A stretch of 64,000 nt of DNA from Paenibacillus aceti. GTDB lineage: Bacteria > Bacillota > Bacilli > Paenibacillales > Paenibacillaceae. Numbering within the stretch: the first letter of the stretch is position 1; every line of letters starts with the position of its first letter. Made by a program: the position numbers and the translations under genes. Below the pieces are notes generated by a model, which saw only the letters and a program-made list of their open reading frames with translations, was not told the origin of the DNA and did not search any database. Positions 10,355-46,000 of the stretch are shown here, in pieces. Location of the stretch: positions 3,513,066-3,577,065 of the forward strand of contig NZ_KZ987724.1 in the NCBI RefSeq assembly GCF_003614185.1. Direction: 5' to 3'.

Positions 10355-10537
10355 TAACGAAACTGGATATCGCTATTTGCCTCAAAAAAGGCGATTTCAA
10401 AATGTAACGAAACTGGATATCGCTATTGAGGCAATTAAAGGGCAAAAGGGCGGAAATCCGCCCGAATAACGATATAGTGTTTCGTTAGAATAGAGTAGGT
10501 GCTGATTTCGCGAAAATAACGATATGGAGTTTCGTTA
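10355..10537. repeat. four-unit intergenic element, family I (copy 1)
   Basis: Four units of about 23 bases: forward at 10355-10377 and 10405-10427, reverse at 10465-10487 and 10515-10537. The unit is TAACGAAAC, five variable bases, then ATCGCTATT (ATCGTTATT in the reverse pair). Starts are 50, 60 and 50 bases apart, total 183 bases. The centre also holds a hairpin, GGGCGGAAATCCGCCC. It fills the gap between the glucosidase operon terminator and the ABC exporter gene (9969-10593), where I see nothing else. Confidence 0.85.
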
Positions 10538-10593
10538 GAACTCCGGGAGCCTGCACAGTTGCAGTTTTCAAGCTTAGTGGGGAGTGGATCATA

Positions 10594-10620
10594 TAAAAAA
10601 GAACGGCCGCAGCCGTTCTC
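10594..10620 (-). terminator. terminator of the glucosidase operon
   Basis: On the minus strand AGAACGGCTGCGGCCGTTCT is followed by a run of T. It lies 23 bases after the glucosidase stop codon. Confidence 0.8.
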
Positions 10621-10642
10621 TAATCTTACTAATCCGTATTCA

Positions 10643-12316
10643 TTATCTCAATCTCAGTACTTGGGCCTCATAAGGGCGAAGCTCCAGCTGCTCAAGCCGC
10701 GTACCCTCCGGCAATTCATAGTTGCCGATCAGCCGCTCGTAAGAACGGTAACCGACGGATGCAGGCAGCTCGAACGTCACTGGGTCAGCGAAGAAGTTAA
10801 GGATCACCAGCAAGCGTTCATCACCCCTAGTGCGAGTATATGCATAGATATGCTCGTGATCTTCAAGTAACAGCTCGTATTTACCGTAGACTAGCACTTC
10901 ATGCTGCTTGCGCAGCTCGATCAGGCGGCGATAATAATGGAAGATCGAATCCGGGTCGGCCAAGGCCTCCTCGGCATTGATCTCCTTATAATTCGGATTG
11001 ACGACGAGCCAAGGCGTCCCCGTTGTGAAGCCGCCATGCTCTGTCGCATCCCACTGCATTGGCGTGCGGGCATTATCACGCCCTTTGCTGTAGATCGAAG
11101 CCATGATGTCCTCGACCGAGCGCCCTGCTTCGCGATGCTCCTTGAACATATTATGCGTCTCGATATCCTGATACTCTTCAATCGTCGCGAACTTCACATT
11201 GGTCATGCCCAGCTCTTCACCCTGGTAGATGAACGGAGTACCCTGCATCGTATGAAGCAGGGTGCCGAGCATTTTTGCCGATTCCTTGCGATATTGACCG
11301 TCATTGCCGAAGCGGGATACCATCCGTGGCTGGTCATGATTGTTCAGGAACAGGCTGTTCCAGCCCTTGCCGTCAAGCTCGGTCTGCCATTTACTCATGA
11401 TGCGCTTGAAATCAAGCAGCTTCCACGGTGTCACATACCATTTTCCTCCCGGGCCTGAGTCGATATCCATCGATTCGAACTGGAACACCATGCTCAGCTC
11501 GCCCCGGTCTTCACCCACATAGAGCGCCGCTTCCTCCGGTGATACTCCCGGCGTCTCGCCGACCGTCATCACATCATACTTCGACAGTACCTCCCGATTC
11601 ATCTCCTGCAGGAATTCATGGATACGCGGGCCATTCATGAAGTATTTACCGCCGTCCTTGTACTTGCTCTCTCCTTCACCATCCGGCAAGCCTTCCACCT
11701 TACTGATCATATTGATCACGTCCATCCGGAAGCCATCGATGCCTTTATCCAGCCACCAGGTCATAAGGTCGTACACCTCGCGGCGTACCTTCTCATTCTC
11801 CCAGTTCAAATCCGGCTGCTTCTGCGAGAAGAGGTGCAGATAATACTGCTCCGTCGTCTCGTCGTATTTCCAGGCCGAGCCGCTGAAGATAGAAGCCCAG
11901 TTGTTCGGTTCCTGACCGTCCTTGCCATCGCGCCAAATATAATAATCACGGTACGGATTATCCTTGGATTTGCGGGATTCAACGAACCAGGCATGCTCGT
12001 CCGAGGTATGGTTCACGACCAAGTCCATAATCAGCTTCATTCCGCGGCTATGCAGACCGTCGAGCAGACGCTCCCAATCTTCGATCGTACCGAATTCATC
12101 CATAATTCCTCGATAGTTGCTAATATCATAGCCATTATCGTCATTCGGCGATTCGTAGACCGGACATAGCCAGATCACATCCACTCCCAGCTTCTGCAAA
12201 TAATCCAGCCTGGAAATAATCCCCGGAATATCGCCGATCCCATCCCCGTTGCTGTCCTGAAAGCTGCGCGGGTATATCTGATATACTACGCTTTCCTTCC
12301 ACCATGTCTTCTTCAT
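10643..12316 (-). CDS. GH13 oligo-1,6-glucosidase / alpha-glucosidase
   Basis: 557-residue cytoplasmic enzyme that releases glucose from short alpha-glucans. It begins WWKESVVYQIYPRSFQDSNGD, typical of family GH13 subfamily 31. The catalytic residues are D199 (DGFRMDVIN), E254 (TVGETPG) and D328 (FLNNHDQPR). Valine follows D199, a mark of oligo-1,6-glucosidases of the MalL type rather than maltases. It is the last gene of an operon with two sugar permeases and a binding protein under a LacI regulator, so the transporter probably brings in isomalto- or malto-oligosaccharides. Confidence 0.92.
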   Translation of the reverse strand: MKKTWWKESVVYQIYPRSFQDSNGDGIGDIPGIISRLDYLQKLGVDVIWLCPVYESPNDDNGYDISNYRGIMDEFGTIEDWERLLDGLHSRGMKLIMDLVVNHTSDEHAWFVESRKSKDNPYRDYYIWRDGKDGQEPNNWASIFSGSAWKYDETTEQYYLHLFSQKQPDLNWENEKVRREVYDLMTWWLDKGIDGFRMDVINMISKVEGLPDGEGESKYKDGGKYFMNGPRIHEFLQEMNREVLSKYDVMTVGETPGVSPEEAALYVGEDRGELSMVFQFESMDIDSGPGGKWYVTPWKLLDFKRIMSKWQTELDGKGWNSLFLNNHDQPRMVSRFGNDGQYRKESAKMLGTLLHTMQGTPFIYQGEELGMTNVKFATIEEYQDIETHNMFKEHREAGRSVEDIMASIYSKGRDNARTPMQWDATEHGGFTTGTPWLVVNPNYKEINAEEALADPDSIFHYYRRLIELRKQHEVLVYGKYELLLEDHEHIYAYTRTRGDERLLVILNFFADPVTFELPASVGYRSYERLIGNYELPEGTRLEQLELRPYEAQVLRLR

Positions 12317-12371
12317 GAGTGAAAACTCCTATCCATTGAGTTATCTATTTATTTCTATATATTTATGATGC

Positions 12372-13199
12372 TTATGATTTAACGGCGCCTTGCGTGATTC
12401 CGTTAATAATCCATTTCTGAGCGAAGATATATACGATCACCATCGGTGCCAACGCCAGCAGGTAAGAGGCAAAGGCCAGGTTATAATCCGTGCTGAATTG
12501 CCCTTGGAATACATACTGTACCAATGGCAGAGTGTACGATTCCGGCTTGCTCAGAATAATGAGCGGCAGCATGAAGTCATTCCATGTGGACAGACAGCTC
12601 AGAATGGCGACAGTCGCATTAATCGGCGCAAGCAGCGGGAAAATAATCCGCCAGAAGGTACCATACGTTGACGCACCATCCACTGTAGCCGCTTCCTCCA
12701 GTTCTAACGGGATGGAGCGGATATAACCGACATAGACGAAAATGTTAAAGGCCAGACCATAAACGATATACAGAATAATCAAGCCAGGAACATTGTTCAT
12801 ATTCAGATCAGTCGTCAGCTTCACTACCGGCAGCATAATGATCTGGAATGGAATGAACATCGCGCTAATGAAGTAGAAATACAAGCCTTTGAAGAATTTA
12901 TGGTTCATATTACGCGCTACTGCGTACGACACAAGCGAGTTGGTCAAGAGCACGAAGCTCACCGAGCAGAACGTAATGATGAAGCTGTTCTTAAAGGCCG
13001 AGAAGAAATCCGTCGCTTCGATCGCCCGCGTAAAATTGTCGAAATGTAGTCCTGTCGGCAGAGCGAAGATGGATTGCGCCATTTCCTCCGGATTTTTCAG
13101 TGCGATCGACACCGTCATGTATAGCGGAAATAGTATAACGAGCGAACCGAGGGTAATCAGTGCTGTGATGAGCCAATTGGTAGAATTTCTGGTTTTCAT
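12372..13199 (-). CDS. sugar ABC transporter permease, MalG type
   Basis: 275 residues, six predicted membrane helices and the EAA loop that contacts the ATPase (ELEEAATVDGASTYGTFWRIIFPLL). The end WIINGITQGAVKS is typical of the CUT1 family MalG-type subunit. It overlaps the stop of the partner permease gene by one base. It forms the inner-membrane channel with that partner. No ATPase gene is in the operon, so a shared MsmX-type ATPase is likely. Confidence 0.92.
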   Translation of the reverse strand: MKTRNSTNWLITALITLGSLVILFPLYMTVSIALKNPEEMAQSIFALPTGLHFDNFTRAIEATDFFSAFKNSFIITFCSVSFVLLTNSLVSYAVARNMNHKFFKGLYFYFISAMFIPFQIIMLPVVKLTTDLNMNNVPGLIILYIVYGLAFNIFVYVGYIRSIPLELEEAATVDGASTYGTFWRIIFPLLAPINATVAILSCLSTWNDFMLPLIILSKPESYTLPLVQYVFQGQFSTDYNLAFASYLLALAPMVIVYIFAQKWIINGITQGAVKS

Positions 13200-14065
13200 T
13201 AGGCATCCAACTCCCTCTTCTGTAAAAAGTTAAGCTGCACTACGGAGATAATTACGATCACGATAAAGTAAATAACCGCGTTCGCCGATTGATAAGCGAA
13301 TTCCCCGCCCTGGAAGCCGCCTTGATAGATCAGCATAGCGATCGATTGCGTCGCACGTCCCGGACCGCCGCCGGTAAGGGCTACGATCTGGTCAAATACC
13401 ATGAGCGAGTTCTTCATCGCCAGCACCATGTTAATCGTAAAGAATGAAGCCAGCATCGGGAACGTCATCGACCAGAATCTGCTCCATGTACCCGCGCCAT
13501 CGATATCCGCCGCCTCGTAAATATCGCGCGGAATAGTCTGTAGACCGGCCAGGTACAGGATTGTATTGAAGGCAATCCCTTGCCATACGGCTACGATTAC
13601 GATACCGATCCAGGCCCATTTCTCACTGCCGAGAATATTGGTCGCCAGCATCTCGCTGCCGAGCTTCTCGCCGATCATCGGAACAGCATTCGCGAAGATA
13701 TAGTTGAAGATATAACCGACGATCAGTACGCCGAGGACGTTAGGCAGGAAGTAAATGCCCCGGAAGAAATTACGGAACTTGATGCGTGAGTTCAGCCCTA
13801 GAGCGATAAGCAAGCTAAGTACATTAATAAAAATAGTTACAACAATCGCGTATTTGAAAGTGAACATATAGGCGTTCAGTACATTGCCGTCCGTGAACAG
13901 AGAGGCAAAGTTCTTGAAGCCTACAAAGTCATAGCTGTCACTATATCCATCCCAATTCGTGAATGAATAGAATATCCCTTGCAGCGTTGGAAAGGTATGA
14001 AATAGGAAAAACAGGAGCAAGGCCGGTATGGTCATGGTATAAAACGCGGCTTTCTTTTTGGCCAT
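13199..14065 (-). CDS. sugar ABC transporter permease, MalF type
   Basis: 288 residues, six membrane helices, EAA loop at IYEAADIDGAGTWSRFWSMTFPML. The start MAKKKAAFYTMTIPALLLFFLF is usual for CUT1 MalF-type permeases. It follows the binding protein gene after a gap that holds a stem-loop (14088-14118) and precedes the MalG-type gene with a one-base overlap. Cytoplasmic membrane; imports sugar delivered by the lipoprotein. Confidence 0.92.
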   Translation of the reverse strand: MAKKKAAFYTMTIPALLLFFLFHTFPTLQGIFYSFTNWDGYSDSYDFVGFKNFASLFTDGNVLNAYMFTFKYAIVVTIFINVLSLLIALGLNSRIKFRNFFRGIYFLPNVLGVLIVGYIFNYIFANAVPMIGEKLGSEMLATNILGSEKWAWIGIVIVAVWQGIAFNTILYLAGLQTIPRDIYEAADIDGAGTWSRFWSMTFPMLASFFTINMVLAMKNSLMVFDQIVALTGGGPGRATQSIAMLIYQGGFQGGEFAYQSANAVIYFIVIVIISVVQLNFLQKRELDA

Positions 14066-14087
14066 CGTAATCCTCCTTCTTGAAATG

Positions 14088-14118
14088 GAGAAGAGCGCAC
14101 AAGTAGCGCACTCTTCTC
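14088..14118 (-). promoter_or_regulatory. intercistronic stem-loop
   Basis: GAGAAGAG and CTCTTCTC (plus-strand coordinates 14088-14095 and 14111-14118) can pair, with further GCGC pairing inside. It has no T run and lies between the binding protein and permease genes. Such loops protect the upstream message and raise the amount of binding protein over permease; that role is inferred. Confidence 0.6.
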
Positions 14119-14135
14119 ACAGGTATCAGGCTCTG

Positions 14136-15395
14136 TTATTTGCGGTTTGCAACCTTATCCCACTCTGTATCGAACTGCTTCACATAAGCGTCTACATCTT
14201 TCTTTTGCAGGAAGCCTTGGATGATCGTATCAGCCTTCACCGCACTTGGAATATAGTGGTCGGAGAAGTCCTCGATTGCACCGCTCTCGAATGCCGCATT
14301 GAAGCCTTCTACACTTGGATCGGATTGAGTTACACCTTTAACTGCTGAGAATGCTTTTTGTTGATCGATGAAGAATTGAATATTGTCAGGTTGCAGCATG
14401 AAGTCGATGAACTTCTTGGCTTCTTCTGAATGCTTCGTATTCTTGGAGATCGCCAGCAAGGTATCCACACCGGAGATCACTTTATTCTTCGCTTCATCAT
14501 TCGTTGCCGGGAATGGGAACACGCCCAGTTCAACATTCGGGTTCGCTTTCAGGATTTCAGGAATAGCCCATACGCCTTGGATATACATAGCTGCTTCACC
14601 TCTTGCGAATGCGGTATTCCCGTCATTGTAGCCTTTGCCGAACAGATCCTTCTGTCCGAACTCAATCAATTTCAGTTGCTTCTCAGCCACTTCACGGAAT
14701 TCAGGGCTATCGAATTTGATCTTTCCTTCAGCACGATTGGCATAGAAGTCGATTCCAACGATGTCACTCGACAGGGAGTTGAATGGCACCAATGTGGTCC
14801 AAGCATCCTTCAGCGTCTGATAAATAGCGACCTTGCCGCCATCCTTAGCCTTCTGAGCCGCTACGATAAATTCATCCCAAGTCTTAGGAACTTCAATGCC
14901 AAGCTCCGTGAAGATCGCTTTGTTATAGATCACACCGCTCGCATTAGCTGTGAACGGAATGGCATAAGCGCTGTCCGATCCGATCAGCTTATTCAGCATG
15001 TTCAGATAAGAAGGCTGAATGTTCTCGAGCAGAGCATCTCCGGTAAGATCGGCGAAGATTCCACTCTTAGCCAATTGAGCATAAGTATCCGTAGCACCGA
15101 GACCGATAATATCAGGAACATCTTTCTTCGCTACACGGGTTTTAAGTACAGTCTCAGCATCCGGCGGGTTCACCTGCTGAACATGAATATTCGGGTTGGC
15201 CTCATTAAACTTTTTAATAAGAGCATCGAATGAATCCTTGGCTTCTGTCTTGTTCTGGAAGAACTCCAGCTCCACCTTCTTGCCAGCTGCCTCGTTGCCG
15301 TTAGAAGTATTCGAATTTTTATTGCCGCCCCCACAGCCGGCTAGAGCCAACAAGAATAAGGCGCTCACAAGAACTAAGGATATTGTCTTTTTCAT
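14136..15395 (-). CDS. sugar ABC transporter binding lipoprotein
   Basis: About 419 residues. A lipoprotein signal ends in LALAGC (cysteine near residue 22), so it is anchored to the outer face of the membrane. The remainder is a two-lobed periplasmic-type binding fold of the CUT1 family (VELEFFQNKTEAKDSFDALI at the start; GEAAMYIQGVWAIPEILK later). The start at 15395 is chosen because GGAGGG lies ten bases ahead; an ATG at 15413 would include that site. First gene of the transporter operon, with LacI-type operators just upstream. Confidence 0.92.
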   Translation of the reverse strand: MKKTISLVLVSALFLLALAGCGGGNKNSNTSNGNEAAGKKVELEFFQNKTEAKDSFDALIKKFNEANPNIHVQQVNPPDAETVLKTRVAKKDVPDIIGLGATDTYAQLAKSGIFADLTGDALLENIQPSYLNMLNKLIGSDSAYAIPFTANASGVIYNKAIFTELGIEVPKTWDEFIVAAQKAKDGGKVAIYQTLKDAWTTLVPFNSLSSDIVGIDFYANRAEGKIKFDSPEFREVAEKQLKLIEFGQKDLFGKGYNDGNTAFARGEAAMYIQGVWAIPEILKANPNVELGVFPFPATNDEAKNKVISGVDTLLAISKNTKHSEEAKKFIDFMLQPDNIQFFIDQQKAFSAVKGVTQSDPSVEGFNAAFESGAIEDFSDHYIPSAVKADTIIQGFLQKKDVDAYVKQFDTEWDKVANRK

Positions 15396-15449
15396 AACGT
15401 ACTGACCCTCCATACTTTGTAATTTTGCTGTGTAGAATAACCAATAGCG

Positions 15450-15463
15450 AGTAAACGTATACT
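15450..15463. promoter_or_regulatory. LacI-type operator, imperfect
   Basis: AGTAAACGTATACT, one base away from the perfect palindrome at 15583. It lies about 55 bases upstream of the binding protein start and would overlap the promoter or early transcript. Confidence 0.6.
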
Positions 15464-15582
15464 TCTATACTAAGAAAGTTCCTGTCTTCTCCGTTCTCGG
15501 CAACCACCTCCTTTAAAGATGTCTATCCGAACCTTCTACTGAATCCTCTATGAATAATTATGGAAGAATAGATTCATATAGA

Positions 15583-15596
15583 AGTAAACGTTTACT
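15583..15596. promoter_or_regulatory. LacI-type operator, perfect palindrome
   Basis: AGTAAACGTTTACT, a perfect 14-base palindrome with the central CG of LacI-family sites. It lies between the regulator gene and the operon it would control. Two related sites (15450 and 16676) support a shared regulator. Confidence 0.75.
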
Positions 15597-15604
15597 CTAT
15601 TGTG

Positions 15605-15629
15605 AAAAAACTTGCCTTGGATCAAGGCA
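15605..15629 (-). terminator. terminator of the lacI-type gene
   Basis: On the minus strand TGCCTTG-ATC-CAAGGCA is followed by AG and six T. The regulator stop codon TGA lies inside the stem. Confidence 0.7.
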
Positions 15630-16629
15630 TTTGACGAACTGTCTGTCTCTCTATTAAATTATGGTTCACAATACTGCTGGACACTTGCTCTGCGCCTTCG
15701 ATCAAGTCGATCAGCATTTCAGATGCGGTACGCCCCATCATCGTCAATGGCTGATGAATCGTCGTCAACGGCGGATAGACCATTCTTGAGAAGATCAGGT
15801 CATCATAGCCGACGATGGATATATCTTCTGGAACCTTGAGTCCTCGCTCCAGCGCGACCCCCATCGCTCCGATCGCCATCTCGTCACTGGCGGCGAATAG
15901 AGCCGTGAACGGCGGCGCATCTTGAAGTAGCTTCTCCATCGCCTCGCGGCCCTTATCGAGACCAAAATTTCCGTAGGCGACCCTCGATTCCATAAATTCA
16001 AGGCCATTGTCTTCAAGCGCCTGACGATAGCCCTCCAGACGTGGAATCCCGGCCATCGTATCCCAGCTCGTACCGCTGATCATGGCGATATCACGATGTC
16101 CCTTGCGGATAAGATACTCTGTAGCGTGATAGGCTGCCTGACGATCATCCACCTTCACATAAGGGATCGAGTGCTTATGAGACTGCGTATTCACAAGGAC
16201 GACCGGCACCCTCATCTGCTTGAGAACTTTATAATACTCTTCCTCCAGAAATCCGCTGGTGAATATCACGCCATCCACCTGCTTCTCGCCGAGCACCTGA
16301 AGATATTTCATCGTCCGCTCCCCGTCCTTGGCGGTATTGCACACGATGACGCTAAATCCTTTGTCATTCGCCGTCTCTTCCACACCATGCAGAATCTCTG
16401 ATGAGAAGCTGCTCGATACGTCAGGAACCAATACACCGATCGTCTGCGTCCGTTTGTTAATCAAGCCTCTGGCAATGGCATTAGGCTGGTAACCGAGCTC
16501 TTCAACCGCTTTCAATACTTTCTGCTTAGTCTTGTCAGAATAGCCTGAAAGATTATGCAGCACTCTGGATACCGTAGCGACGGATACCCCGGATGCCTTT
16601 GCAACATCTTTTATCGTTGGAGGATTCAT
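15622..16629 (-). CDS. LacI-family transcription regulator
   Basis: 335 residues. The helix-turn-helix lies at residues 5-25 (TIKDVAKASGVSVATVSRVL) with the hinge helix near residue 50 (NAIARGLINKR). The sugar-binding core starts IGVLVPDVSSSFS and includes the typical ends VGYDDL and PPLTTIHQP. It most likely represses the downstream glucosidase/transporter operon and releases it when sugar is present. The three AGTAAACGTTTACT-type sites (15450, 15583, 16676) flank this gene on both sides, which also suggests self-control. Confidence 0.92.
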   Translation of the reverse strand: MNPPTIKDVAKASGVSVATVSRVLHNLSGYSDKTKQKVLKAVEELGYQPNAIARGLINKRTQTIGVLVPDVSSSFSSEILHGVEETANDKGFSVIVCNTAKDGERTMKYLQVLGEKQVDGVIFTSGFLEEEYYKVLKQMRVPVVLVNTQSHKHSIPYVKVDDRQAAYHATEYLIRKGHRDIAMISGTSWDTMAGIPRLEGYRQALEDNGLEFMESRVAYGNFGLDKGREAMEKLLQDAPPFTALFAASDEMAIGAMGVALERGLKVPEDISIVGYDDLIFSRMVYPPLTTIHQPLTMMGRTASEMLIDLIEGAEQVSSSIVNHNLIERQTVRQMP

Positions 16630-16675
16630 ATTCCCATCAACCGCAACCTTCTTCGCTTTTGTATTTGAGAATTTA

Positions 16676-16690
16676 AGTAAACGTTTAACT
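16676..16690. promoter_or_regulatory. LacI-type operator upstream of the regulator gene
   Basis: AGTAAACGTTTAACT, with the core TAAACGTTTA palindrome of the other two sites. It lies about 47 bases upstream of the lacI-type start codon, consistent with autoregulation. The further stretch to 16921 holds no gene that I can support; a TGAATCGCTTTCA dyad at 16735-16747 resembles a CcpA site only loosely. Confidence 0.6.
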
Positions 16691-16921
16691 TGTTTACAGT
16701 ATACTTATCCATTTCCGCTTTGTCAACGCTTTTATGAATCGCTTTCATCATTTTGTCAATCGGTCACATCCCTTATGTCCATTGGGCTAGCAGCGATACC
16801 CGCCCAAGATGCGGCTTGCATTCCCATTTCTTAGTATCAGGCTACGGCGATCATTATTATGCGTTTTCGGCGATCCATCCTCTTAAGGATGAAGAGTAAT
16901 GGACCGCCGATTGCGTAATCG

Positions 16922-18667
16922 TTACGGTAATGTTGATAAGAGCGCTTTCACTGTATTGGCAAAACTATAATTCTGCGTTTTATCCCAATTGATCGACCAG
17001 GTCATCGCACCGCGTAAATCCGGATACTGGGCTACTGGCTTATAGGTGCCGCAATCCGTGCCGCTTGTGAGACATTTCAGCGCATTGTTCACCACCGTGG
17101 CAGACACATATCCGCCTCCCGCCGCACTTGGAGTAGCAGGCACGCCGATCCCGAGTTGCGATGGCTCCACCCACTGCAGCGTCAAATCGGACAATGCCGT
17201 CAGGAAGTCGATTGTTCCCTGGGAGTAGCATTTCCCATCACGGCCGAGCATACACCCGGAATTATAATATTGCACATTCATCACAGTCGTCATGTCTTTG
17301 AGATTATTATACAGCTGCATATATGAGGTATTCGGATTCTGCATATCAATCGTCTGCGGAGCCATGGTCAGTATGAATCCCGCGCCGACCTTGGCCTGCA
17401 ATTGGCGTACCGCATTCGTCAGGTTCGTTACGTTCATGCCATTCTCTAGGTCAATATCGATCCCATCCAGTCCGAACTTCGTAATCAAACCGTACATACT
17501 ATCGACGAAATTGGTGACGTTCGGGGAAGGATTATTCAGATTCACATTGCCATGTTCACCGCCGATGGAGAGAATCACCTTCTTGCCTTGAGCACGCTTG
17601 GCCTGGATATCATTGATCAGATCATCATCAGAGTATCCGCCTAGCGCATTCGACAACGGTGTATCTACATGGAAGGTTACCCCGCCTGGCTTCGTCGGAT
17701 CCATTTCTGCGAAGGAAAGTGCAATAATATCATACTGGCTTGGAACATCACTGAGCTTGATATTAGAGGAACCGTTGATGAAGTTATGCCAATAGCCCGT
17801 CAGTGTATGCTTCGGCAATTGTCCTCCGCCTCCACTTCCCGCCGTGGTTGCACTTACCCCTGCACTCTGTGGCGAGACATTGCCGGCGCCATCTTTGGCC
17901 GCTATTTTGAAAGTATAAGTGGTACTGGCGGAAAGTCCGGTAACTGTAGCGCTCGTTCCTGTTACGGACAGAGCCAGGCTTGTCCCTCGATAGACATCGT
18001 AGCCAGTGACCCCGACATTATCCGCAGAAGCCGACCAGGACAGCGAGACTGAGGAGGAGGTTACACCTGTAACCGTTACGTTAGCGGGCGTTGTTGGGGC
18101 TTCGGTATCCGGGCCTGCAGCCGCATTCGTCTTCACCGTGATCGCGTTGCTGGAAGGAGAGACATTGCCTGCGGCATCCTTCGCCTTCACCGAATAAGAG
18201 TAAGTCGTATCCGGGGTTAGTCCGGTATGGGTAAATGTCAGCGTCGATCCTGAGACGCTGCCGACCGATGCTGTACCTTGAGAGATCACATATTCCGCAA
18301 CGCCTACATTATCTGTAGAGGCTGTCCACTGTAATGTAATACTGGTAGCAGTTACGCCAGAGGCATTCAAATTACCCGGAGCGGTCGGCGCCTGTGTATC
18401 AGTAGATCCGCCCTGCGTCTGCTGCCATAAGGCCGGCACATTAGGCGGCTCCCAGCCGACAAGCGAGGTATGCGGTTGCAGCGCTTGATACGTATTGCCT
18501 CCATAAGTTACGGTATCATTCGCTTGATAAGATACATTCGGTGCCCACGCGCCACGATCCGCCGCAGATACCAGCGAAGGCAGCAACGCTATGAATAGCG
18601 CGACGATCAGTAAGACAGGTATTCCCCGCCTTATCCCCTTCTTCGTCTGTTGCGACATTCTTCTCAT
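16922..18667 (-). CDS. secreted GH18 chitinase
   Basis: 581 residues. A signal peptide (to about residue 36, LPSLVSAA) is followed by a small chitin-binding module of the CBM5/12 type at 40-83 (WAPNVSYQANDTVTYGG, YQALQPHTSLVGWEPP). Two fibronectin type III repeats lie at about 95-180 and 190-275. The GH18 catalytic domain runs from about 287 to the end. The active-site motif DGIDIDLE is at 401-408, with E408 as the proton donor. It cuts chitin outside the cell. AAGGAGGAG lies just before the ATG. It stands alone; a regulator is not obvious. Confidence 0.95.
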   Translation of the reverse strand: MRRMSQQTKKGIRRGIPVLLIVALFIALLPSLVSAADRGAWAPNVSYQANDTVTYGGNTYQALQPHTSLVGWEPPNVPALWQQTQGGSTDTQAPTAPGNLNASGVTATSITLQWTASTDNVGVAEYVISQGTASVGSVSGSTLTFTHTGLTPDTTYSYSVKAKDAAGNVSPSSNAITVKTNAAAGPDTEAPTTPANVTVTGVTSSSVSLSWSASADNVGVTGYDVYRGTSLALSVTGTSATVTGLSASTTYTFKIAAKDGAGNVSPQSAGVSATTAGSGGGGQLPKHTLTGYWHNFINGSSNIKLSDVPSQYDIIALSFAEMDPTKPGGVTFHVDTPLSNALGGYSDDDLINDIQAKRAQGKKVILSIGGEHGNVNLNNPSPNVTNFVDSMYGLITKFGLDGIDIDLENGMNVTNLTNAVRQLQAKVGAGFILTMAPQTIDMQNPNTSYMQLYNNLKDMTTVMNVQYYNSGCMLGRDGKCYSQGTIDFLTALSDLTLQWVEPSQLGIGVPATPSAAGGGYVSATVVNNALKCLTSGTDCGTYKPVAQYPDLRGAMTWSINWDKTQNYSFANTVKALLSTLP

Positions 18668-19222
18668 CAGAACTCCTCCTTATCGTTTCAGCTAGCTACC
18701 TCCATCTCCCTTGAAACCCTGAAATTCCTCCTTTCTTCTTTCTCTATGAAATAAACTATGCGCCATGCCTTAATAGAGCAGAAAAGTGACGACATAGAAT
18801 ATTTAAGCAGGACATTCTAACGGAAATCAGAGTGACAAAATAAGCCCATAACAGGATGAACGAAAATTGGACCGTGGACGACCCCAAGCGAACACAGATT
18901 AGGGACCGCTAGATTGGATTAAATTGGATTGGAAAGCTTGAAACAGGAAAATCGATACTTTTTGAAGAGGGAAACTACCACCAATTGAACTCGTGATGAC
19001 TGAACCTACTCCGTAAAGAGGAATACTTACCGCAGAAAAAACGAGGGTTATCTATTAATCTTCCTTCATTGTAAATAAATGTAATGAGCTTGTCTACCTC
19101 TGATTCCAGAAAATACATCAAATTTTAAATTTGGTCAAAATAGTACACGCTTTTCATAGCATAATTAGCGGCACGACAGAGAGGCGCTCTGATGAACGCC
19201 CCTTTTTCTGATCAAATCCACC
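18668..19222. other. gene-free stretch between chitinase and FtsX-type permease
   Basis: About 555 bases. It should carry the chitinase promoter near its left end. A weak GGCG/CGCC hairpin followed by CCTTTTT lies at about 19184-19207. No coding frame, repeat or known RNA was recognised. Confidence 0.4.
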
Positions 19223-24764: not shown

Positions 24765-24947
24765 TAAGGAAACTCCATATCGCTATTACCACGAAATTCG
24801 CGCCCACTCAGTTCTAATGAAACTCCATATCGTTATTTGGGTAAAAATCCGCCTTTTTACCCTTGATCTGCCCCAATAGCGATACTTAGTTTCGTTAGGT
24901 TTTTAAATGGTCCCTTTCGACGCAAATAGCGATACCCAGTTTCGTTA
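24765..24947. repeat. four-unit intergenic element, family I (copy 2)
   Basis: Units forward at 24765-24787 and 24815-24837, reverse at 24875-24897 and 24925-24947. Start-to-start distances are 50, 60 and 50, total 183 bases, exactly as at 10355. The unit is again TAACGAAAC (here also TAAGGAAAC and TAATGAAAC), five variable bases, ATCGCTATT. It sits between the beta-galactosidase terminator and the response regulator start. Confidence 0.85.
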
Positions 24948-24959
24948 CAATACACAATA

Positions 24960-24993
24960 AATAAGCCTGCCGAGCATACATTGCTCAGCAGGC
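24960..24993 (-). terminator. terminator of the beta-galactosidase operon
   Basis: A 12-base stem, GCCTGCTGAGCA against TGCTCGGCAGGC on the minus strand, followed by a T-rich tail. It lies 15 bases after the galactosidase stop codon. Confidence 0.8.
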
Positions 24994-25007
24994 CGATAAT
25001 ACATCGC

Positions 25008-35047: not shown

Positions 35048-35081
35048 TGTTCTAAACTTATGGAAACAGCCATCGAGACAC

Positions 35082-36267: not shown

Positions 36268-36305
36268 CTTATGCTCATCACCTTTCGTACTATTTTTAAC
36301 AACGC

Positions 36306-38899: not shown

Positions 38900-38920
38900 G
38901 CTTATCCCCCATTCTCATGA

Positions 38921-40672
38921 TCAATATGAAGTAAATTGTTCTACTGTTCGAAATGGAAGTTCAATGCGAATTAACGCCCCTGCCTGAGGAACATTGTCAA
39001 ATTCAAGCCGGGCATCCTGTCCGAACAAATGCTTGATCCTGTACTGCACATTGGTAATGCCGAGATGCTCTCCATTCTGATGCTCCATATAGCTGCCGGA
39101 CTGCAGCTTCTCCAGCATCTCCGGTGAGAATCCATTGCCGTTATCCCAGACGGTGATCTCCAGCTGATCCTGCCCCACTAACCTGATCCTTATAGATATA
39201 TGAAAGGGATGATCCATAAAATCAAAACCATGCTTAATCGCATTCTCAATAAACGGCTGAATTAAAAGCGGCGGTATAGCACCCTCTCCGGCACCCTCTT
39301 CAATCTGAATTTCATATGTAATCCGCTCCGGGAATCGGACTTGTTGAATTTTAATATAGCTCTCCATATGCTCCATCTCTTCATTCACGGTCACAAAAGC
39401 CTGATTGGTCCTGGTAGTGAAGCGGAAATATTTTACCAGATTCATGCACATCAGCTGAATGACATTATAATTCTTGATCTCAGCCAGGTTGTAGATAATG
39501 TTAATCGAATTCAGGAGAAAATGAGGGTTGATCTGCAGCTGCAAATGCTTCAGCTCGGCCTTATGCGCCTTGATCTGCTCTTCATACACGTTGATCTTCA
39601 GTTCATGGATTTCAGCAGCCATGCCATTGAAGGTCTCTTCTATAATCGCGAACTCTCTGGACTTGGAAGGCTTGAGCCGTGTATCCCAATCCCCGTGCTT
39701 GATGCGCCGCATCCCGAAGACGAGATTGTTCATGGGCTTAAGTATAATATCATTCAGATAGATCAGATAAATGACCAGAATGAATAGTGCACCGATCGAA
39801 ATAAGAATAATACCTCGGCGGAATTTCTCCAGATCCTCCAGCATTTGATCCTCCGGGACGAATACACTTAGAATGACGTCCGTGCCGATAACCGGATTCG
39901 TAACGGCAATATATCTATGATCATCCTGCTTCACGATCGTATAATCACCGCTACGCTTCGCTCCCACGGATAGGGAACGGTTCGGGGTGATGGCACCCGC
40001 ATTCGTAATCAATTGTCCCTGTTGATTCAGGAAGCCGGCGAAACCCTCCTTCGAGTGAATAATATCCAACGGAATCACCAGATTCTCTAGCTCAATAAAA
40101 GCTCCCACATAGAAATCATCTCCCGTACTCACCATGCGAATCAAGGCATATTTTCCTTCGTTATACTCTATCGCCTTCCACTTCTGGAAATATTCGCTAT
40201 CTAGCTTGACCTCCTTGACCAAGTTCTCAATCGATGTCTTGATCGCATTCATCCGCTCGTAGGACGGCTCCTTGATCTGTGTCGTGAAAAAATCCTTATT
40301 GCGCAGCGAATAAATAAACTGCAGATCGACACTGTTATCGTAGCGATGATAACGGGAAATGGTGCTTATTAGCGTGGCTTTGGCTAGAAAATACTCATTC
40401 GGATCATCCATCAGCTGCGGCAGGGCAGCGAGATTCGGATCTTCAACGGCAATGTTGTAGAGAAAATTCGTCTCTTTGTTCAGAGCCGCCTCAATCTGAT
40501 GTGAATACAAGATCATCGAATTTTTATTGGATTCGGCGACCTGCTCGCGGATCATATTGGAGGCGTAATAATTGTTATAGAGCATCAGTCCGAACAATGG
40601 AACCGTAATTACTACAAAACCGATAATCAGCTTGAAACGAAGTGACTGCTTGATATTCGATACTTTGAACAT
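38921..40672 (-). CDS. YesM-type sensor histidine kinase
   Basis: About 583 residues. Two membrane helices enclose a large outer domain, followed by HAMP and the His_kinase core with LQLQINPHFLLNSINIIYNL; the ATP site shows PFIENAIKHGF and WDNGNGFS. The start at 40672 is chosen because the protein then opens with its membrane anchor (FKLIIGFVVITVPLFGLML); the ribosome site there (GGGG) is weak, and an ATG-like start at 40762 is possible. Works with the regulator encoded 21 bases downstream. Confidence 0.87.
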   Translation of the reverse strand: MFKVSNIKQSLRFKLIIGFVVITVPLFGLMLYNNYYASNMIREQVAESNKNSMILYSHQIEAALNKETNFLYNIAVEDPNLAALPQLMDDPNEYFLAKATLISTISRYHRYDNSVDLQFIYSLRNKDFFTTQIKEPSYERMNAIKTSIENLVKEVKLDSEYFQKWKAIEYNEGKYALIRMVSTGDDFYVGAFIELENLVIPLDIIHSKEGFAGFLNQQGQLITNAGAITPNRSLSVGAKRSGDYTIVKQDDHRYIAVTNPVIGTDVILSVFVPEDQMLEDLEKFRRGIILISIGALFILVIYLIYLNDIILKPMNNLVFGMRRIKHGDWDTRLKPSKSREFAIIEETFNGMAAEIHELKINVYEEQIKAHKAELKHLQLQINPHFLLNSINIIYNLAEIKNYNVIQLMCMNLVKYFRFTTRTNQAFVTVNEEMEHMESYIKIQQVRFPERITYEIQIEEGAGEGAIPPLLIQPFIENAIKHGFDFMDHPFHISIRIRLVGQDQLEITVWDNGNGFSPEMLEKLQSGSYMEHQNGEHLGITNVQYRIKHLFGQDARLEFDNVPQAGALIRIELPFRTVEQFTSY

Positions 40673-40790
40673 ACTTATCGACCCCGGATCTATGCAAGAT
40701 TTAGTATGAACCCTTATTCTAAGTAGTCCTGTACGTAATCCCTCCGATGTCCACAGGCTCATCTACCTCGAGTATAGTTTCCGGTAGAGC

Positions 40791-40844
40791 AAAAAGGAAT
40801 CCCTAGATAGGATCCCTGCATCGCCCTAGTTCAGAATTCCTTTT
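40791..40844 (-). terminator. terminator of the second sugar transporter operon
   Basis: AAAAGGAAT pairs with ATTCCTTTT at the outer ends, and CTAG pairs inside. On the minus strand it ends in T5. It follows the binding protein gene and precedes the kinase gene. Confidence 0.6.
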
Positions 40845-40861
40845 CGCTTCACCTCTGTTTA

Positions 40862-42391
40862 TTACTTCTGTGATTCCGCCCATGCCGCCAACTGCTTATC
40901 CACTTCGGCCTTGACTTTGTCAAAACCGGCCGATTTGCGTTTTGCTTTCCACTTCTCAAGCAATGGCTCAGGCTCTACTGCCCCAGAACGTAAAGTAGCT
41001 TCAAACTCTTTCATCACGTTGGTTAGGGATGCCATTTCTGATTTAACCGGCTCTTGGTTAAAGGAGAAGCCCAGAGCGATGGAACGCTCGGAGCGATCAT
41101 TGAACTTCTGGAATTCCTCCCATTTGTTCGGATCCTCGTTCGCCCATAGATAGGAATTGAACTGATTACCGAACATCCAGCCACCTGGATTCGGATAGGT
41201 CTGTGTATCTGAATTTACACCCTCAGGAAAATCGATCACATTATCGCTTACCTTCACATAGTGCTTGCCTTCAATGCCCCAATCGAGCATATTTAACAGT
41301 ACCGGATCTGTATAGAGCATGTTCAGGAACATCATCGCCCTTGCCGGGTCCTTGGAGGTCCGGGAAATACCGAGCATAGCCCCTTGGGCGTCACCTGTAG
41401 TTGTAAATGGCTCAAAGGTCTCCACCTGAATCATTTCAACCCCGGCGCTCAGACTCATTTCCTTGTCCTTACCAGGCTTCAGAGATTGGCCGACCGCAAA
41501 GGCCTTGCCCGCCTTGATCATATTAACGCCCTGTTCTTCAGTCGAAGTCAGGATGTCTTTATCGAACCAGCCATTCTGATTCCATTGATGCATCCGTTTA
41601 TAGAAATCGATGAAGTTAGGGTCCTCCAGCATATCAACTGCTTTAAGCTCCTTGCTGTCGCGAGGAATTCCGATATCAGTTGCTAAATAGTCATAATTAG
41701 CTGCATTCCAAATGTTCGTGAATTTGGATGAGGCCACAGGGGCAACATCAGGCTCGTTCTCTTTAATTGTTTTGAACATCTGTTCCATATCCTCAATGGA
41801 CTTGATGCCATTCGTATCAAAGCCATATTTATCAACCAGCTTCTTATCGAGCAAGAAGCCGAAGCCTTGGCCGAATTCTTTCTTGGTAGGAAGAGCGTAC
41901 AGCTTGCCGTCAATTCTCGACCCCTTAATAAAGTCATCGCCGAGAACCCCAGGAATATCCTTGCCGTACTCGTTCATCAGATCGTCAAGCTCCAGATATT
42001 GCCCTTTGGCAGCATCCTTCGCGTATGAGAACCAGCTAGCCGTGAACATCAAGTCAAAGGGCTCATTCGAGACCTTCATCAGGTTCGTCTTGTCCTCCCA
42101 GGAAGCCCATTCAATCGGTTTCAGCTCGATCGTCGCATTGATCTTCTCCGTCAAGTATTTGCTCATTTCGTCTTGAACCAGCTGAAGATCCTTTGCGGCT
42201 GAAGCCGGGTATACCATCGTAATTTTATACGGGCTAAGCTTGCTATTTCCTTCTTGATTCCCGCTTTCCGCTGTATTGCCAGATGTGTTCCCCGAATCGG
42301 ATGGCTTATTGGAATTCCCCTTGCCACACGCCGTCAGTACAAGCATTCCACATAGCATCACAATGAACAGTAAATGAACCTTCTTCTTCAT
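40862..42391 (-). CDS. sugar ABC transporter binding lipoprotein
   Basis: About 509 residues. The lipoprotein signal ends LVLTAC (cysteine near residue 22), then a Ser/Asn/Gly linker, then the large Lpl-type binding fold (SPYKITMVYPASAAKDLQLV; EPFDLMFTASWFSYAKDAA). Start at 42391 with GAGAGGAG ahead. Last gene of the permease-permease-binding protein run, an order opposite to the other two sugar loci in the window. The sugar is unknown; the neighbouring beta-helix gene hints at a plant cell-wall oligosaccharide. Confidence 0.88.
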   Translation of the reverse strand: MKKKVHLLFIVMLCGMLVLTACGKGNSNKPSDSGNTSGNTAESGNQEGNSKLSPYKITMVYPASAAKDLQLVQDEMSKYLTEKINATIELKPIEWASWEDKTNLMKVSNEPFDLMFTASWFSYAKDAAKGQYLELDDLMNEYGKDIPGVLGDDFIKGSRIDGKLYALPTKKEFGQGFGFLLDKKLVDKYGFDTNGIKSIEDMEQMFKTIKENEPDVAPVASSKFTNIWNAANYDYLATDIGIPRDSKELKAVDMLEDPNFIDFYKRMHQWNQNGWFDKDILTSTEEQGVNMIKAGKAFAVGQSLKPGKDKEMSLSAGVEMIQVETFEPFTTTGDAQGAMLGISRTSKDPARAMMFLNMLYTDPVLLNMLDWGIEGKHYVKVSDNVIDFPEGVNSDTQTYPNPGGWMFGNQFNSYLWANEDPNKWEEFQKFNDRSERSIALGFSFNQEPVKSEMASLTNVMKEFEATLRSGAVEPEPLLEKWKAKRKSAGFDKVKAEVDKQLAAWAESQK

Positions 42392-42522
42392 ATTCTGCCG
42401 TTCTCCTCTCAATTCGTACTATTAACACTATATCCCCCGGAGTTGCAGTCCATCCAATCTGTGTCAGCCCCACCTCCTTTACGGTGAACTCTCTGTATAA
42501 ACCCTATGTTTCAGCCTTATAC

Positions 42523-43422
42523 TTAGCCTTTTACTGCGCCAGATGTAATTCCGCTAATATAGTATTTTTGGAAAAACGGATAGGCAAACAATAAAGGAGC
42601 TACACCGATCATGGCAAGGGCCATTCGCACTGATTCACGCGGCATCTTGGCCAGCAGCTCGCCAACCTGCGCTGTACTGTTGGATTTCGCCAACAGGAAT
42701 TGAATATTAGTCAATGTCTTAGTCATCAAATACTGAATGTTATACAAATCTGGATTATCGATAAACAGCATGCAGTTATACCAATCATTCCAGTAAGCAA
42801 GAGTATTAAAGAGACCTATCGTCGCCATAATCGGCAGGGACAATGGTACGACAATTTTGAAGAAGATCTTCAGTTCCCCCGCTCCATCAATCGTCGCCGA
42901 CTCAATGACCGATTCAGGTATCGTCGAGGCGAAGAAGCTTCTCATCAAGAACACGTTAAAAGCGCCCATCAACAAGTTCGGAATAATCATGGAGAAGATT
43001 GTATTCTTCATACCTAGCATGTTGACATAAGTGATATACCATGGTGCCAATCCTCCACCAAACAGCATCGTAAAGAAGAGGTAGAAGGAAATTGTCCGCC
43101 TGAACGGCAGTTGAGCTCGCGATATAGGATAGGCAAAGAGTGCCGTAATCAGCAAGCTTACTGCCGTACCAACAAGCGTAGCAACGATGGTCACTCCGTA
43201 GGCCTTAGCAATTTCAGTAAAGTCATTGAACAGGAATTGATAAGCTCCAAAGCTGATTTCGTTAGGAAATAAGGAAAATCCTTTCTGCGCAATGGAATCC
43301 TCGCTTGAAATGGATACCATAAATATGAGTATGAACGGAACCAGTGATACGATGGTGAAGCACCAGAAGAATAGATGGATCATCGCAGGGCCGATTCGCT
43401 TGGACAAATTTAATTCTCTCAC
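42523..43422 (-). CDS. sugar ABC transporter permease, LplC type
   Basis: 299 residues, six helices, EAA-like loop TIPESVIESATIDGAGELKIFF and the end YYISGITSGAVKG. In the loop the first glutamate-alanine pair reads ESA, a mild departure. Starts 20 bases after its partner permease. Confidence 0.91.
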   Translation of the reverse strand: MRELNLSKRIGPAMIHLFFWCFTIVSLVPFILIFMVSISSEDSIAQKGFSLFPNEISFGAYQFLFNDFTEIAKAYGVTIVATLVGTAVSLLITALFAYPISRAQLPFRRTISFYLFFTMLFGGGLAPWYITYVNMLGMKNTIFSMIIPNLLMGAFNVFLMRSFFASTIPESVIESATIDGAGELKIFFKIVVPLSLPIMATIGLFNTLAYWNDWYNCMLFIDNPDLYNIQYLMTKTLTNIQFLLAKSNSTAQVGELLAKMPRESVRMALAMIGVAPLLFAYPFFQKYYISGITSGAVKG

Positions 43423-43442
43423 GTTGTTCTCTCCCTCCCCGG

Positions 43443-44369
43443 TTAAAACAATGCGCTCTGTTTATTGATTCGTCTGACTGCGGTATTGGCTACCAGGATC
43501 AGTACGAAGCAACAAACCGATTGATAGAGGCCCGCTGCCGTAGACATCCCAACGTCACCGGATTGCAGCATAGCACGGTATACGAAGGTGTCGATCGTCT
43601 GTGTCGTCGGTATGAGTGCCCCGGTATTCATAGGTACCTGGTAGAACAAGCCAAAGTCCGAGCGAAGAATCGTACTAACTGCCAGCAAGGTCAACGTGAT
43701 GATGACCGGCATAATTAATGGAATCGTAATGCGCGTCATCTGCTTCCATTTGCTTGCCCCATCGATGGTAGCTGCTTCGTAATACTCCTTGTCTATACCG
43801 ATGATGGAAGCGAAGTAAATAATGGACCAATAGCCGACGCTCTTCCATGCGTTAACAATGACCAGGATGAAAGGCCAATATTTCGGCTCTCCGTACCAGG
43901 AGATTCCATCCATAGAGAACCACTTCAGCAGCAATCTGTTCACCAGACCATTCTCGGCGTTCAGGAAGCTAAATACGAGATAAGCAACGACGACCATCGA
44001 AATGATATGAGGAAGCAGGAAGGTACTCTGATAGAATCGGCTGATAACTTTATCCTTAATCTCATTGATCAAAAGTGCGATGGTGACGGATAGAATTAGA
44101 TTTAAAGTGATGAAGACCAGATTGTACAGCAACGTATTCCTTGTAATGATGTAAGCATCCTCCGTGTTGAACAGGAACCTAAAGTTATCCCATCCTGCCC
44201 AAGGGCTTCCCCAGATTCCGTCGACGTAATTGTAATTTTTGAAGGCCAGAATTACGCCATACATCGGAATATAGTTATTAATGAATAGGTAGATAATCCC
44301 CGGCACGGTCATAAGCAGCAGCCACTTATACTTTTTCACATCTCTCTTTAATTTAACTAGTTTCGTCAT
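43443..44369 (-). CDS. sugar ABC transporter permease, LplB type
   Basis: 308 residues, six helices, EAA loop EYYEAATIDGASKWKQMTRITIP, and an N-terminal cytoplasmic basic stretch (LVKLKRDVKKYKW). First gene of the transporter operon. The 236 bases between it and the divergent phosphodiesterase gene must hold both promoters. Confidence 0.91.
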   Translation of the reverse strand: MTKLVKLKRDVKKYKWLLLMTVPGIIYLFINNYIPMYGVILAFKNYNYVDGIWGSPWAGWDNFRFLFNTEDAYIITRNTLLYNLVFITLNLILSVTIALLINEIKDKVISRFYQSTFLLPHIISMVVVAYLVFSFLNAENGLVNRLLLKWFSMDGISWYGEPKYWPFILVIVNAWKSVGYWSIIYFASIIGIDKEYYEAATIDGASKWKQMTRITIPLIMPVIITLTLLAVSTILRSDFGLFYQVPMNTGALIPTTQTIDTFVYRAMLQSGDVGMSTAAGLYQSVCCFVLILVANTAVRRINKQSALF

Positions 44370-44605
44370 GTTCCAACCCCTTCACCCCATGATGTGTAAA
44401 CCCTTACACTTCCATTCTATAATTCAGTTTCTGACGTAACCACTACCCTGGTGACTTTCTAATAGCACGTTCGTGACTTCTTCTAAACAGGTCAAAAATA
44501 AACCATTGACAGGTCAATAATAGTCATTGACACTTCTAACCGGGATCATTATGCTAGGGTCGTGATATCGCTGTCATACATCTCTAGAGGAGGGGATTAT
44601 TAATC

Positions 44606-45433
44606 ATGCAGAAGGATAAGCAAATTAAACGGGTCTTTATTCTAGGAATGGATGGGGCCGGTAACTTTATTCAAAATACGGATACGCCGAATATCGACGC
44701 TTTCTTAAGCAAGGGAGCGGTTACTTATATGGCGCAAGCCCAATCACCAACGATCAGTGCGGAATGCTGGGGTTCTATACTCCACGGTGTCGTTCCTGAG
44801 AGACACGGACTGAATAATGAAATCGCATCCACTCAGACCTACCCAGTGGACTCCCCATATCCATCGATATTCCGACTGGCACGGGAAGCCTGGCCTGAAG
44901 CCAAGCTGGCTGCCTTCTCAAGCTGGGCGCCTATCGTTAACGGAATCGTTGAAGAAGGACTCGGGATTCATAAGGAAGCCTTGCCAGACGACGAGCTTGT
45001 AAGCGCGATCGAAACCTATATTGAGCAAAATAATGACGTCAAGCTGCTCTATATGCAGCTGGATGACCCCGATGCTTCCGGTCATAAATACGGATACGGC
45101 GCGGATTCGCCAGGTTATCTGAAGGCTATTACCCGAATGGATGAACTGTTCGGGCGCATATTGCGTGTGATTGAGCAGCAAGGTCTGCTTGAGGACAGCC
45201 TCGTGATCCTCGTTACCGACCATGGCGGCGGCGGAGCGAACAAGCATGACCACGGCAGCGACCATCCGATGGACAAGAATGTATTCTGGGGCTGCGTGGG
45301 CCCGGGCGTATCAGCTGGCACAGCCTTGCCAGATATGTTCATTGTCGATACCGCAGCGGTCGCGTTGCATGCTCTTGGCCTGGAGCGGCCAGCGGATTGG
45401 GATGGCAAGGTGCCTGCTAATTTGTTCGGCTAA
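44606..45433 (+). CDS. alkaline phosphatase superfamily phosphodiesterase
   Basis: 275 residues of the nucleotide pyrophosphatase/phosphodiesterase fold. Metal-binding parts are VFILGMDGAG at the start, SPTISAECWGSI with a threonine nucleophile, LLYMQLDDPDASGHKYG, VTDHGGGGANKHDHG and SDHPMD. No signal peptide, so it is cytoplasmic. AGAGGAGG precedes the ATG. It is divergent from the sugar transporter genes and may act on a phosphorylated sugar or nucleotide sugar; the substrate is not known. Confidence 0.87.
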   Translation: MQKDKQIKRVFILGMDGAGNFIQNTDTPNIDAFLSKGAVTYMAQAQSPTISAECWGSILHGVVPERHGLNNEIASTQTYPVDSPYPSIFRLAREAWPEAKLAAFSSWAPIVNGIVEEGLGIHKEALPDDELVSAIETYIEQNNDVKLLYMQLDDPDASGHKYGYGADSPGYLKAITRMDELFGRILRVIEQQGLLEDSLVILVTDHGGGGANKHDHGSDHPMDKNVFWGCVGPGVSAGTALPDMFIVDTAAVALHALGLERPADWDGKVPANLFG

Positions 45434-45482
45434 TAGCGCGGGCGTTGGGGGCTGGGCGCTTTGGCGCGAGGTGCGCGGGCGT

Positions 45483-45695
45483 GGGCGTTGAGGGCTTTGT
45501 GTGGCGCAGGGCGTTACGCGCTTTGACGCAGGATGCGGACGCATGTGTGTGGTGATGGGCGTGGGGTGCTGAAAGGCTTTGTGTGAGCGCGGGGTGCAGA
45601 CGCTAGGCGTTGAAGTCCTTATGTAGGCGCGTAGAGTTATGGGCCTTTTGTGGCACTGGCCGCGGGCGGTGGGTGTTGAAGGCTTTGTGTGACGC
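45483..45695. repeat. degenerate G-rich repeats
   Basis: Four related stretches of about 26 bases start near 45483, 45563, 45605 and 45671. The common pattern is GGCGTTGA, then GGCTTTGTGTG, then GCGC. Spacing is irregular (80, 42 and 66 bases). A weaker copy lies near 45443. The block from 45434 to 45720 is much richer in G than the rest and on the plus strand has few C. No coding sense was found. Confidence 0.55.
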
Positions 45696-45817
45696 TGAGT
45701 GCGTTGCGTTCTTTGGCACAGGGGCGAGTATTTGGAGCATTACCAAGGTTCGGGATGTCGCATCTTTTGTACAGTGCTTAGTGCAGTACGCCGGGTGCTC
45801 GCTGTTCGTTTTTCGTC

Positions 45818-46000
45818 TAACGAAACTACAGATCGCTATTTGCCCAAAAACAACGATTAAAAAAATTTAACGAAACACCATATCGCTATTCCGAGTAAAT
45901 CCCGGCTTTTGACCCTAAATTTACCCAAATAGCGTTACCCAGTTTCGTTAAAATTGGACACCGCCCTTTTGGGCGCGAATAGCGATACCACGTTTCGTTA
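45818..46000. repeat. four-unit intergenic element, family I (copy 3)
   Basis: Units forward at 45818-45840 and 45868-45890, reverse at 45928-45950 and 45978-46000. Distances are 50, 60 and 50, total 183 bases, identical to the copies at 10355 and 24765. The unit keeps TAACGAAAC and ATCGCTATT; unit 3 reads AATAGCGTTACC. It lies in the gap between the phosphodiesterase and the metallophosphoesterase. Confidence 0.85.

Follow-up and report, generated by a model that had tools for sequence, protein, structure and literature searches.

The stretch analysed here, called the window, comprises 64,000 nucleotides of the Paenibacillus aceti genome (assembly GCF_003614185.1, contig NZ_KZ987724.1, positions 3,513,066 to 3,577,065 of the forward strand), and it contains three copies of an intergenic element composed of four similar boxes. 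The boxes, named F1, F2, R3 and R4, run forward, forward, reverse, reverse, their starts are 50, 60 and 50 bases apart, and every element covers 183 bases (Table 1). A search of the window allowing up to 3 mismatches per box found these 12 boxes, with 0–2 mismatches each, where 0.04 were expected by chance, and none of 100 shuffled controls attained 12. A preliminary description of the window had reported the three elements at these positions and with this geometry, and had placed all of them between co-directional genes and two of them beside a terminator; each of these statements held. The open reading frames (ORFs) on either side are co-directional, their products matching an ABC transporter and an alpha-amylase at element 1, a response regulator and a GH35 galactosidase at element 2, and two phosphoesterase-type families at element 3. 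Terminator-like hairpins adjoin elements 1 and 2, and the hairpin scan found none near element 3; the chance yield of such scans is 0.4–1.3. The orientation of an element is set by its central bases and spacers, and by this measure element 1 (at 10355) faces the opposite way from elements 2 and 3. The window spacers are related to one another and have a subfamily sequence in common, for example an A-tract about 30 bases past the start of F1 together with its mirror image.

Table 1. Four-box elements, their boxes and the adjoining hairpins in the window (bits, score with the full-length model).
Feature	Position	Strand	Remarks
Four-box element 1	10355..10537	- (oriented reading)	183 bp; full-length model G000:C1:3523416-3523606, 152.1 bits
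Element 1 box	10355..10377	+	0 mismatches
Element 1 box	10405..10427	+	0 mismatches
Element 1 box	10465..10487	-	1 mismatch
Element 1 box	10515..10537	-	1 mismatch
Four-box element 2	24765..24947	+	183 bp; 142.6 bits
Element 2 box F1	24765..24787	+	1 mismatch
Element 2 box F2	24815..24837	+	2 mismatches
Element 2 box R3	24875..24897	-	0 mismatches
Element 2 box R4	24925..24947	-	0 mismatches
Four-box element 3	45818..46000	+	183 bp; 144.6 bits
Element 3 box F1	45818..45840	+	0 mismatches
Element 3 box F2	45868..45890	+	0 mismatches
Element 3 box R3	45928..45950	-	1 mismatch
Element 3 box R4	45978..46000	-	0 mismatches
Terminator-like hairpin, between amylase gene end and element 1	10598..10621	-	neighbour, outside element
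Terminator-like hairpin, between GH35 gene end and element 2	24964..24994	-	neighbour, outside element

The element is abundant in the genome containing the window (G000; other G numbers denote other genomes, and L numbers denote drawn loci). Exact matches to the box, with its 8 + 9 fixed letters, number 190 in G000 and the control had none, and a sequence-only full-length model built from 18 elements recognised at least 150 elements, with the strands balanced (77 and 73). Placement is largely intergenic: 38 of 40 G000 elements overlapped no chosen ORF of at least 90 codons, and the gene pairs flanking these 40 were tandem in 26 cases, convergent in 8 and divergent in 6. In other genomes, 21 of 36 loci overlapped no ORF of at least 60 codons. 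A plasmid search with one window element returned no match.

The boxes fall into classes according to their letters 6–9. The AAAC class has four hosts (G000, G011, G031 and G032), and our sources included G000, Paenibacillus sp. GM2 (GM2), D2_2 and a metagenome-assembled genome (MAG). Among 208 distinct full-length elements from AAAC-class sources, 182 have exactly the 50/60/50 spacing (86 of 104 in G000, 68 of 72 in GM2 and 28 of 32 in the others), and the remaining 26 are off by 1–2 bases, the remaining 18 of G000 in one interval. This set consists of full-length copies; 13 partial G000 matches were excluded, and the pattern that supplied the GM2, D2_2 and other named loci permitted 25–30 bases between the first two boxes. 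Because this pattern and the full-length model were used, badly altered copies are under-counted. A first pass with fewer copies gave 126 of 145 exact, and three intervals of 42 seen there were absent under the later box placement. The preliminary description had named frequent random spacing or orientation of the unit as the outcome that would undo its proposal, and these counts do not show it. Its suggestion that the spacing is close to five helical turns is correct only approximately, as 50 bp amounts to 4.8 turns when one turn takes 10.5 bp. The spacers carry an A-tract at about 30–33, mirrored at 150–153, which is strong in the AAAC class and weaker across classes. The whole element spans about 195 bp, with the conservation of the flanks ending about 5 bases left and 6 bases right of the outer boxes.

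Orthologous elements, identified by comparing flanks among G000, GM2 and D2_2, showed that this geometry is maintained in place. We totalled 11 comparisons and left out a twelfth, which involved the second copy of one array. In the 10 comparisons with equal spacing, the boxes were identical at 846 of 920 positions (92%) and the spacers at 630 of 910 (69%; Fisher p = 3e-36). Gap openings numbered 5 in 2010 aligned positions of the 11 elements versus 115 in 1984 positions of the flanks, some of which are coding, and restricting the flanks to those at least 75% identical (9 of 22) gave 33 in 840 positions (p = 2e-13 versus the elements). Spacers of random element pairs are 0.51 identical, and since those of orthologs reach 69%, the orthologs have not been overwritten by other copies. 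The box sequence and the geometry are thus kept between species at fixed loci while the spacers change, and such sequence drift at a fixed length is hard to explain without a constraint on spacing. The earlier claim that the spacers drift therefore stands at orthologous loci, but not without qualification, as the spacers retain subfamily features such as the A-tract.

The layout extends far beyond the AAAC class. Of 41 genomes of the genus, 27 contain diverged relatives that the full-length model matched. A script placed 24 diverged elements, of which 4 G012 rows were misplaced since their matches stopped short at the ends; among the 20 outside G012, 19 had the spacing 50/59–60/50 and one 51/60/50. 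We then used a pattern of geometry only, in which TAACG, TAACG, CGTTA and CGTTA are fixed at the element distances with the inner letters free, and the backward pattern served as control. It was present in 136 of 395 genomes of the family, which represent 15 of its 19 genera; a single genome had as many as 137 sites, and the control gave 0. In a class-wide draw, 14 of 398 genomes had it, 12 of 37 inside the family and 2 of 361 outside. When two gaps were loosened to a 20-base range in 8 genomes, 898 forward and 92 control matches were obtained. In 100 G012 rows the length was 133 in 70 and 132–134 in 90, many rows being one element read from both ends. The preliminary description had proposed such a search through the genome and its relatives, and the layout recurred in both. 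The layout therefore belongs to the family as a whole and persists when the box sequence changes.

The box itself was characterised in a cross-class set of 39 loci (35 genomic and 4 on viral contigs), each read from both ends to give 78 arms. It is about 23 bp long with imperfect dyad symmetry, and consists of TAACG, the four class letters, a free middle and then approximately SYTATT. Beyond the letters fixed by the search, T20 was found in 78 of 78 arms, A21 in 71, C or T at 19 in 77 and G or C at 18 in 74, and there were weaker preferences for A30–32, T42–43, A47, T49 and C50. Letters 6–9 vary by class, with AAAC, AATC, GAC-, GAAC-, GTTG- and CTTG-types among others, and several classes coexist in one genome.

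Within an element, the four boxes tend to carry the same class letters. Over the 39 loci, agreement in letters 6–9 was 0.80 for F1:F2 and 0.795 for R3:R4, boxes that are unable to pair, and 0.82 for F1:R4 and 0.81 for F2:R3, boxes that could; F1:R3 and F2:R4 gave 0.865 and 0.77, and different elements 0.42. In 15 loci of G013, G014 and G022 agreement was 0.74 within elements versus 0.38 between them, and in the two-class genome G013 none of the 50 elements listed, of 75, mixed GAC and GTT boxes. A single factor reading all four boxes would be expected to produce such agreement, including that of non-pairable boxes.

Because the boxes are mirror images, the element could alternatively be a structured RNA or an extruded DNA hairpin in which F1 pairs with R4 and F2 with R3, and RNAalifold on 18 elements did draw one long interrupted hairpin of 32 pairs. 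However, double-sided change occurred in 1 of the 32 pairs, and 150 elements less than 90% alike showed no covariation at mirrored positions, where pairing equalled the expectation from independence (observed/expected, 0.803/0.807 in boxes, 0.488/0.495 in spacers and 0.509/0.501 in the centre). Changes at position 19, which is C or T, were compensated neither at the mirrored position nor within the box. The class letters of pairable boxes agree, but those of same-direction boxes agree about equally well, and Rfam gave no match in the window at the gathering threshold. Base pairing is not the conserved feature, so the fold of DNA or RNA that the preliminary description had offered was not borne out, and we regard a hairpin as improbable. 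A hairpin inside each box was also rejected, as position 3 is an invariant A while 19 is C or T, and 16 often mismatches 6 without compensation; an early impression of strand asymmetry, with G.U pairs on one strand, was dropped because position 19 lacked covariation. The high copy number, the intergenic location, the imperfect palindromic inverted units, the species-specific unit sequence and the several families per genome recall a population of REPINs (doublets of repetitive extragenic palindromic, REP, units) kept by a RAYT (Y1 HUH) transposase. Unlike REPINs, the element has four boxes and not two inverted REP units, and Y1_Tnp was unmatched in five of six genomes searched (G011, G031 and G032, which are three of the four AAAC-class hosts, and G001 and G012); the matches in G000 are 14 equal-scoring copies, like an ordinary IS200, which makes this explanation very unlikely. 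Hardest to credit is an integron attC-like recombination site with paired arms and an unpaired centre: the AAAC-class arm does consist of 9-bp flanks pairing around a mostly mismatched 5-bp centre, but no integron integrase reached the TIGR02249 cut-off in any of 41 genomes, with only sub-threshold tyrosine-recombinase matches.

A mobile origin deserves more weight. The element might be a relic resembling a miniature inverted-repeat transposable element (MITE), in which two transposon ends are joined almost directly, each with two same-orientation transposase-binding boxes 50 bp apart, and in which the strict length would reflect what was usable by the synaptic complex; we consider this possible though doubtful. 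Its terminal boxes are inverted, the span ends 5–6 bases past the outer boxes, the borders are sharp and the flanks of different copies are unrelated. Some sites of relatives lack the element, several classes share one genome, and at each of two intergenic spots different species carry opposite orientations (L044 versus L094/L139; L254 versus L084). The two most similar G000 copies (92%) lie 10.8 kb from each other and have 19 of 20 left-flank bases in common. On the other hand, no target duplication stood out in 116 unique flank pairs, where the preliminary description had suggested looking for one, although old insertions could have lost such repeats. No G000 pair exceeds 92% among 104 copies, whose mean is 71%, and the G000 copies are for this reason old. 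No transposase with such ends turned up in the stretches read, no systematic search having been made, and constraint at orthologous loci after divergence is unexpected of dead copies. The proposal of a mobile element with structural rules is thus supported by the borders, the unrelated flanks and the empty sites, but not by target duplications or by closely similar copies.

Tandem amplification of the element was observed in GM2, with periods of 200, 201, 220 and 244 bp. The GM2 intergenic region matching that of element 3 contains such an array, with a period of 201, if L138 and L096 are taken as neighbouring pieces, as the matches suggest. The arrays include some flank and have a locus-specific period (L078, L088, L117 and L096/L138 in GM2, and L206 in G007); the G007 array has a longer period than the approximately 200–244 bp of GM2, and GC-rich repeats. 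In G008, 15 contig ends (L190–L204) share up to about 250 bp, after which the full-length model recognises a three-box (F2-R3-R4) element; the element there adjoins a multi-copy locus, possibly an rRNA operon.

Other repeats and features were noticed around these loci. Immediately downstream of element 3 are two copies, 98% identical, of a 133-nt sequence (window 46011-46143 and 46197-46329), and related stretches of about 150–390 bp were found next to or close to elements at G000, GM2, D2_2, MAG and montaniterrae loci; this is another interspersed repeat family, for which Rfam gave no match in the window. Short hairpins that recur with the structure AAAGCCTGCA-N-TGCAGGCTTT (L044 ~1285-1450, L018 ~10470-10660 and L253 ~2380-2520), often several per intergenic region, look like a second, terminator-like repeat family. 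A GGAC-class element lies amid minisatellites (e.g., CCAAACCAACC) at L178 ~5260-5570 in G036 and L188 ~8950-9510 in G037, and the length of these minisatellites differs between the two close genomes. Across about 200 kb of each of these two genomes, most blocks of which are about 96–97% identical, no insertion polymorphism was seen. A Y1 (IS200-type) transposase match at window ~228-584 on the minus strand has 14 equal-scoring genome copies and is therefore perhaps a recently active insertion sequence. At L016, a lone exact box at 17994 is just upstream of an ORF starting at 18042, which we take to resemble a nitric oxide synthase.

Broadly, the element is one of the interspersed palindromic repeats found between genes, yet REPINs, MITEs and attC sites each have a tested feature that it lacks. 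Bacterial interspersed mosaic elements (BIMEs) of Escherichia coli lie between genes and combine short imperfect palindromes of either orientation with conserved linkers; some loci carry them in tandem, and proteins bind them, the palindromes being sites for gyrase, IHF or Pol I. Our element resembles them in its intergenic imperfect palindromes pointing both ways, its conserved linkers and its tandem amplification at some loci, but differs in having four boxes at a fixed 50/60/50 spacing, 23-bp boxes with TAACG/CGTTA ends, and class letters. The ends of Tn7-like elements, Mu and Tn552 contain several transposase sites each; they share with our element direct repeats of a site of about 22–23 bp per end and the inversion of the ends, whereas here no genes lie between the ends and the total is 183 bp. 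MITEs, of which RUP, NEMIS, Bcr1, ERIC, YPAL, Nezha and EFAR are named in PMC3733652, are likewise short, intergenic and discretely bordered, with terminal inverted repeats and no long ORF; they are set apart from our element by its lack of a detectable target duplication, its spacing selected in place and the fact that no related transposase was seen in the stretches read. Among the open-access PubMed Central papers listed by our searches, none names such an element in Paenibacillus, and the accessible parts of PMC3733652 and PMC10969869 contain no occurrence of that genus name.

Taken together, the four-box element is real, largely intergenic and family-wide, its geometry is conserved, its boxes are class-coherent and it is constrained in place. 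We favour, with some reserve, the reading that it is an old dispersed DNA element whose four boxes probably bind one multimeric protein in a fixed geometry, and which is under purifying selection in place. One such protein, or a family of paralogues with one for each class, would occupy all four boxes, and the fixed spacing would position its subunits in a way that lets them bend, wrap or bridge the 183 bp into a single complex. The element may once have dispersed as a separate unit of non-coding DNA, with tandem amplification in some genomes, and may now be retained because the complex is useful locally, for example in organising or insulating the chromosome between genes. The preliminary description had listed phased protein binding beside a fold and a mobile element, and protein binding is the one favoured here, as the spacing is kept while the spacers drift and letters 6–9 are common to the boxes regardless of pairing. 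More speculatively, thousands of these elements might act as platforms with an evolving recognition code, a paralogue for each class folding the 183 bp and dividing the chromosome between genes while box and protein change class together; we put this forward only tentatively.

Several observations weigh against the reading of a protein-bound, locally useful element. In the eleventh orthologous comparison (L263-L108) the last interval differs by one base, and the orthologous set is small and partly dependent (one trio supplies three pairs, and one pair lies in a 96.7% identical stretch), with both members of a pair having to be recognisable. Class agreement is imperfect (e.g., at L318, L321, L323, L324 and L301), and a deviant box occurs in several CTT-type elements; the agreement can also partly be owed to the shared descent of whole elements. 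The exact geometry-only pattern was absent from 259 of 395 family genomes, and in G300 the loosened-gap search gave a high control (82 forward versus 42). At L261 the conserved flanks are 28 bp apart in GM2 versus about 520 bp in G000 and the element is absent, and at L253 the MAG site is also without it; both empty sites were found in regions drawn for another element. The element is therefore dispensable at single loci, and since the length differences at L261 and L253 exceed one element, an exact insertion cannot be read from them.

A clear link to particular genes or to a protein is likewise missing. Chromosomal positions in G000 did not depart from random and there was no strong replichore orientation. 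At tandem neighbours the element ran with the genes in 15 cases and against them in 11 in G000, and in 50 and 31 cases when four sources (G000, GM2, D2_2 and MAG) were pooled with array copies counted separately, so there may be a weak bias toward gene direction. In other genomes, 15 of 36 loci overlapped an ORF of 60–238 codons, mostly short, with the longest, of 238, at L281. No common neighbour gene was obvious among the 6 window neighbours, among 14 ORFs beside 7 G000 elements inspected by eye, a few of which may be too short for real genes, or among 10 neighbours elsewhere, 3 of them without a Pfam family. No cognate protein was found, and the tested partners, namely RAYT, integron integrase and a Myb-domain regulator, do not follow the element. 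The last of these was considered as TAACGG resembles a Myb site, and the Myb-domain (RsfA-like) candidate was rejected: of the genus genomes, 22 of the 26 that have the pattern and 12 of the 15 that do not have it gave a PF13921 match, and all four AAAC-class hosts lack a match.

The element is an abundant, family-wide feature of the Paenibacillaceae, undescribed in the literature searched, which can be found by its geometry alone. Its tandem arrays may disturb genome assembly. That the spacing stays fixed at orthologous loci while the spacers drift is a clean and testable indication of a protein complex contacting DNA at several sites, and through its class letters the element provides a natural experiment on how a DNA-binding protein co-evolves with many of its sites.

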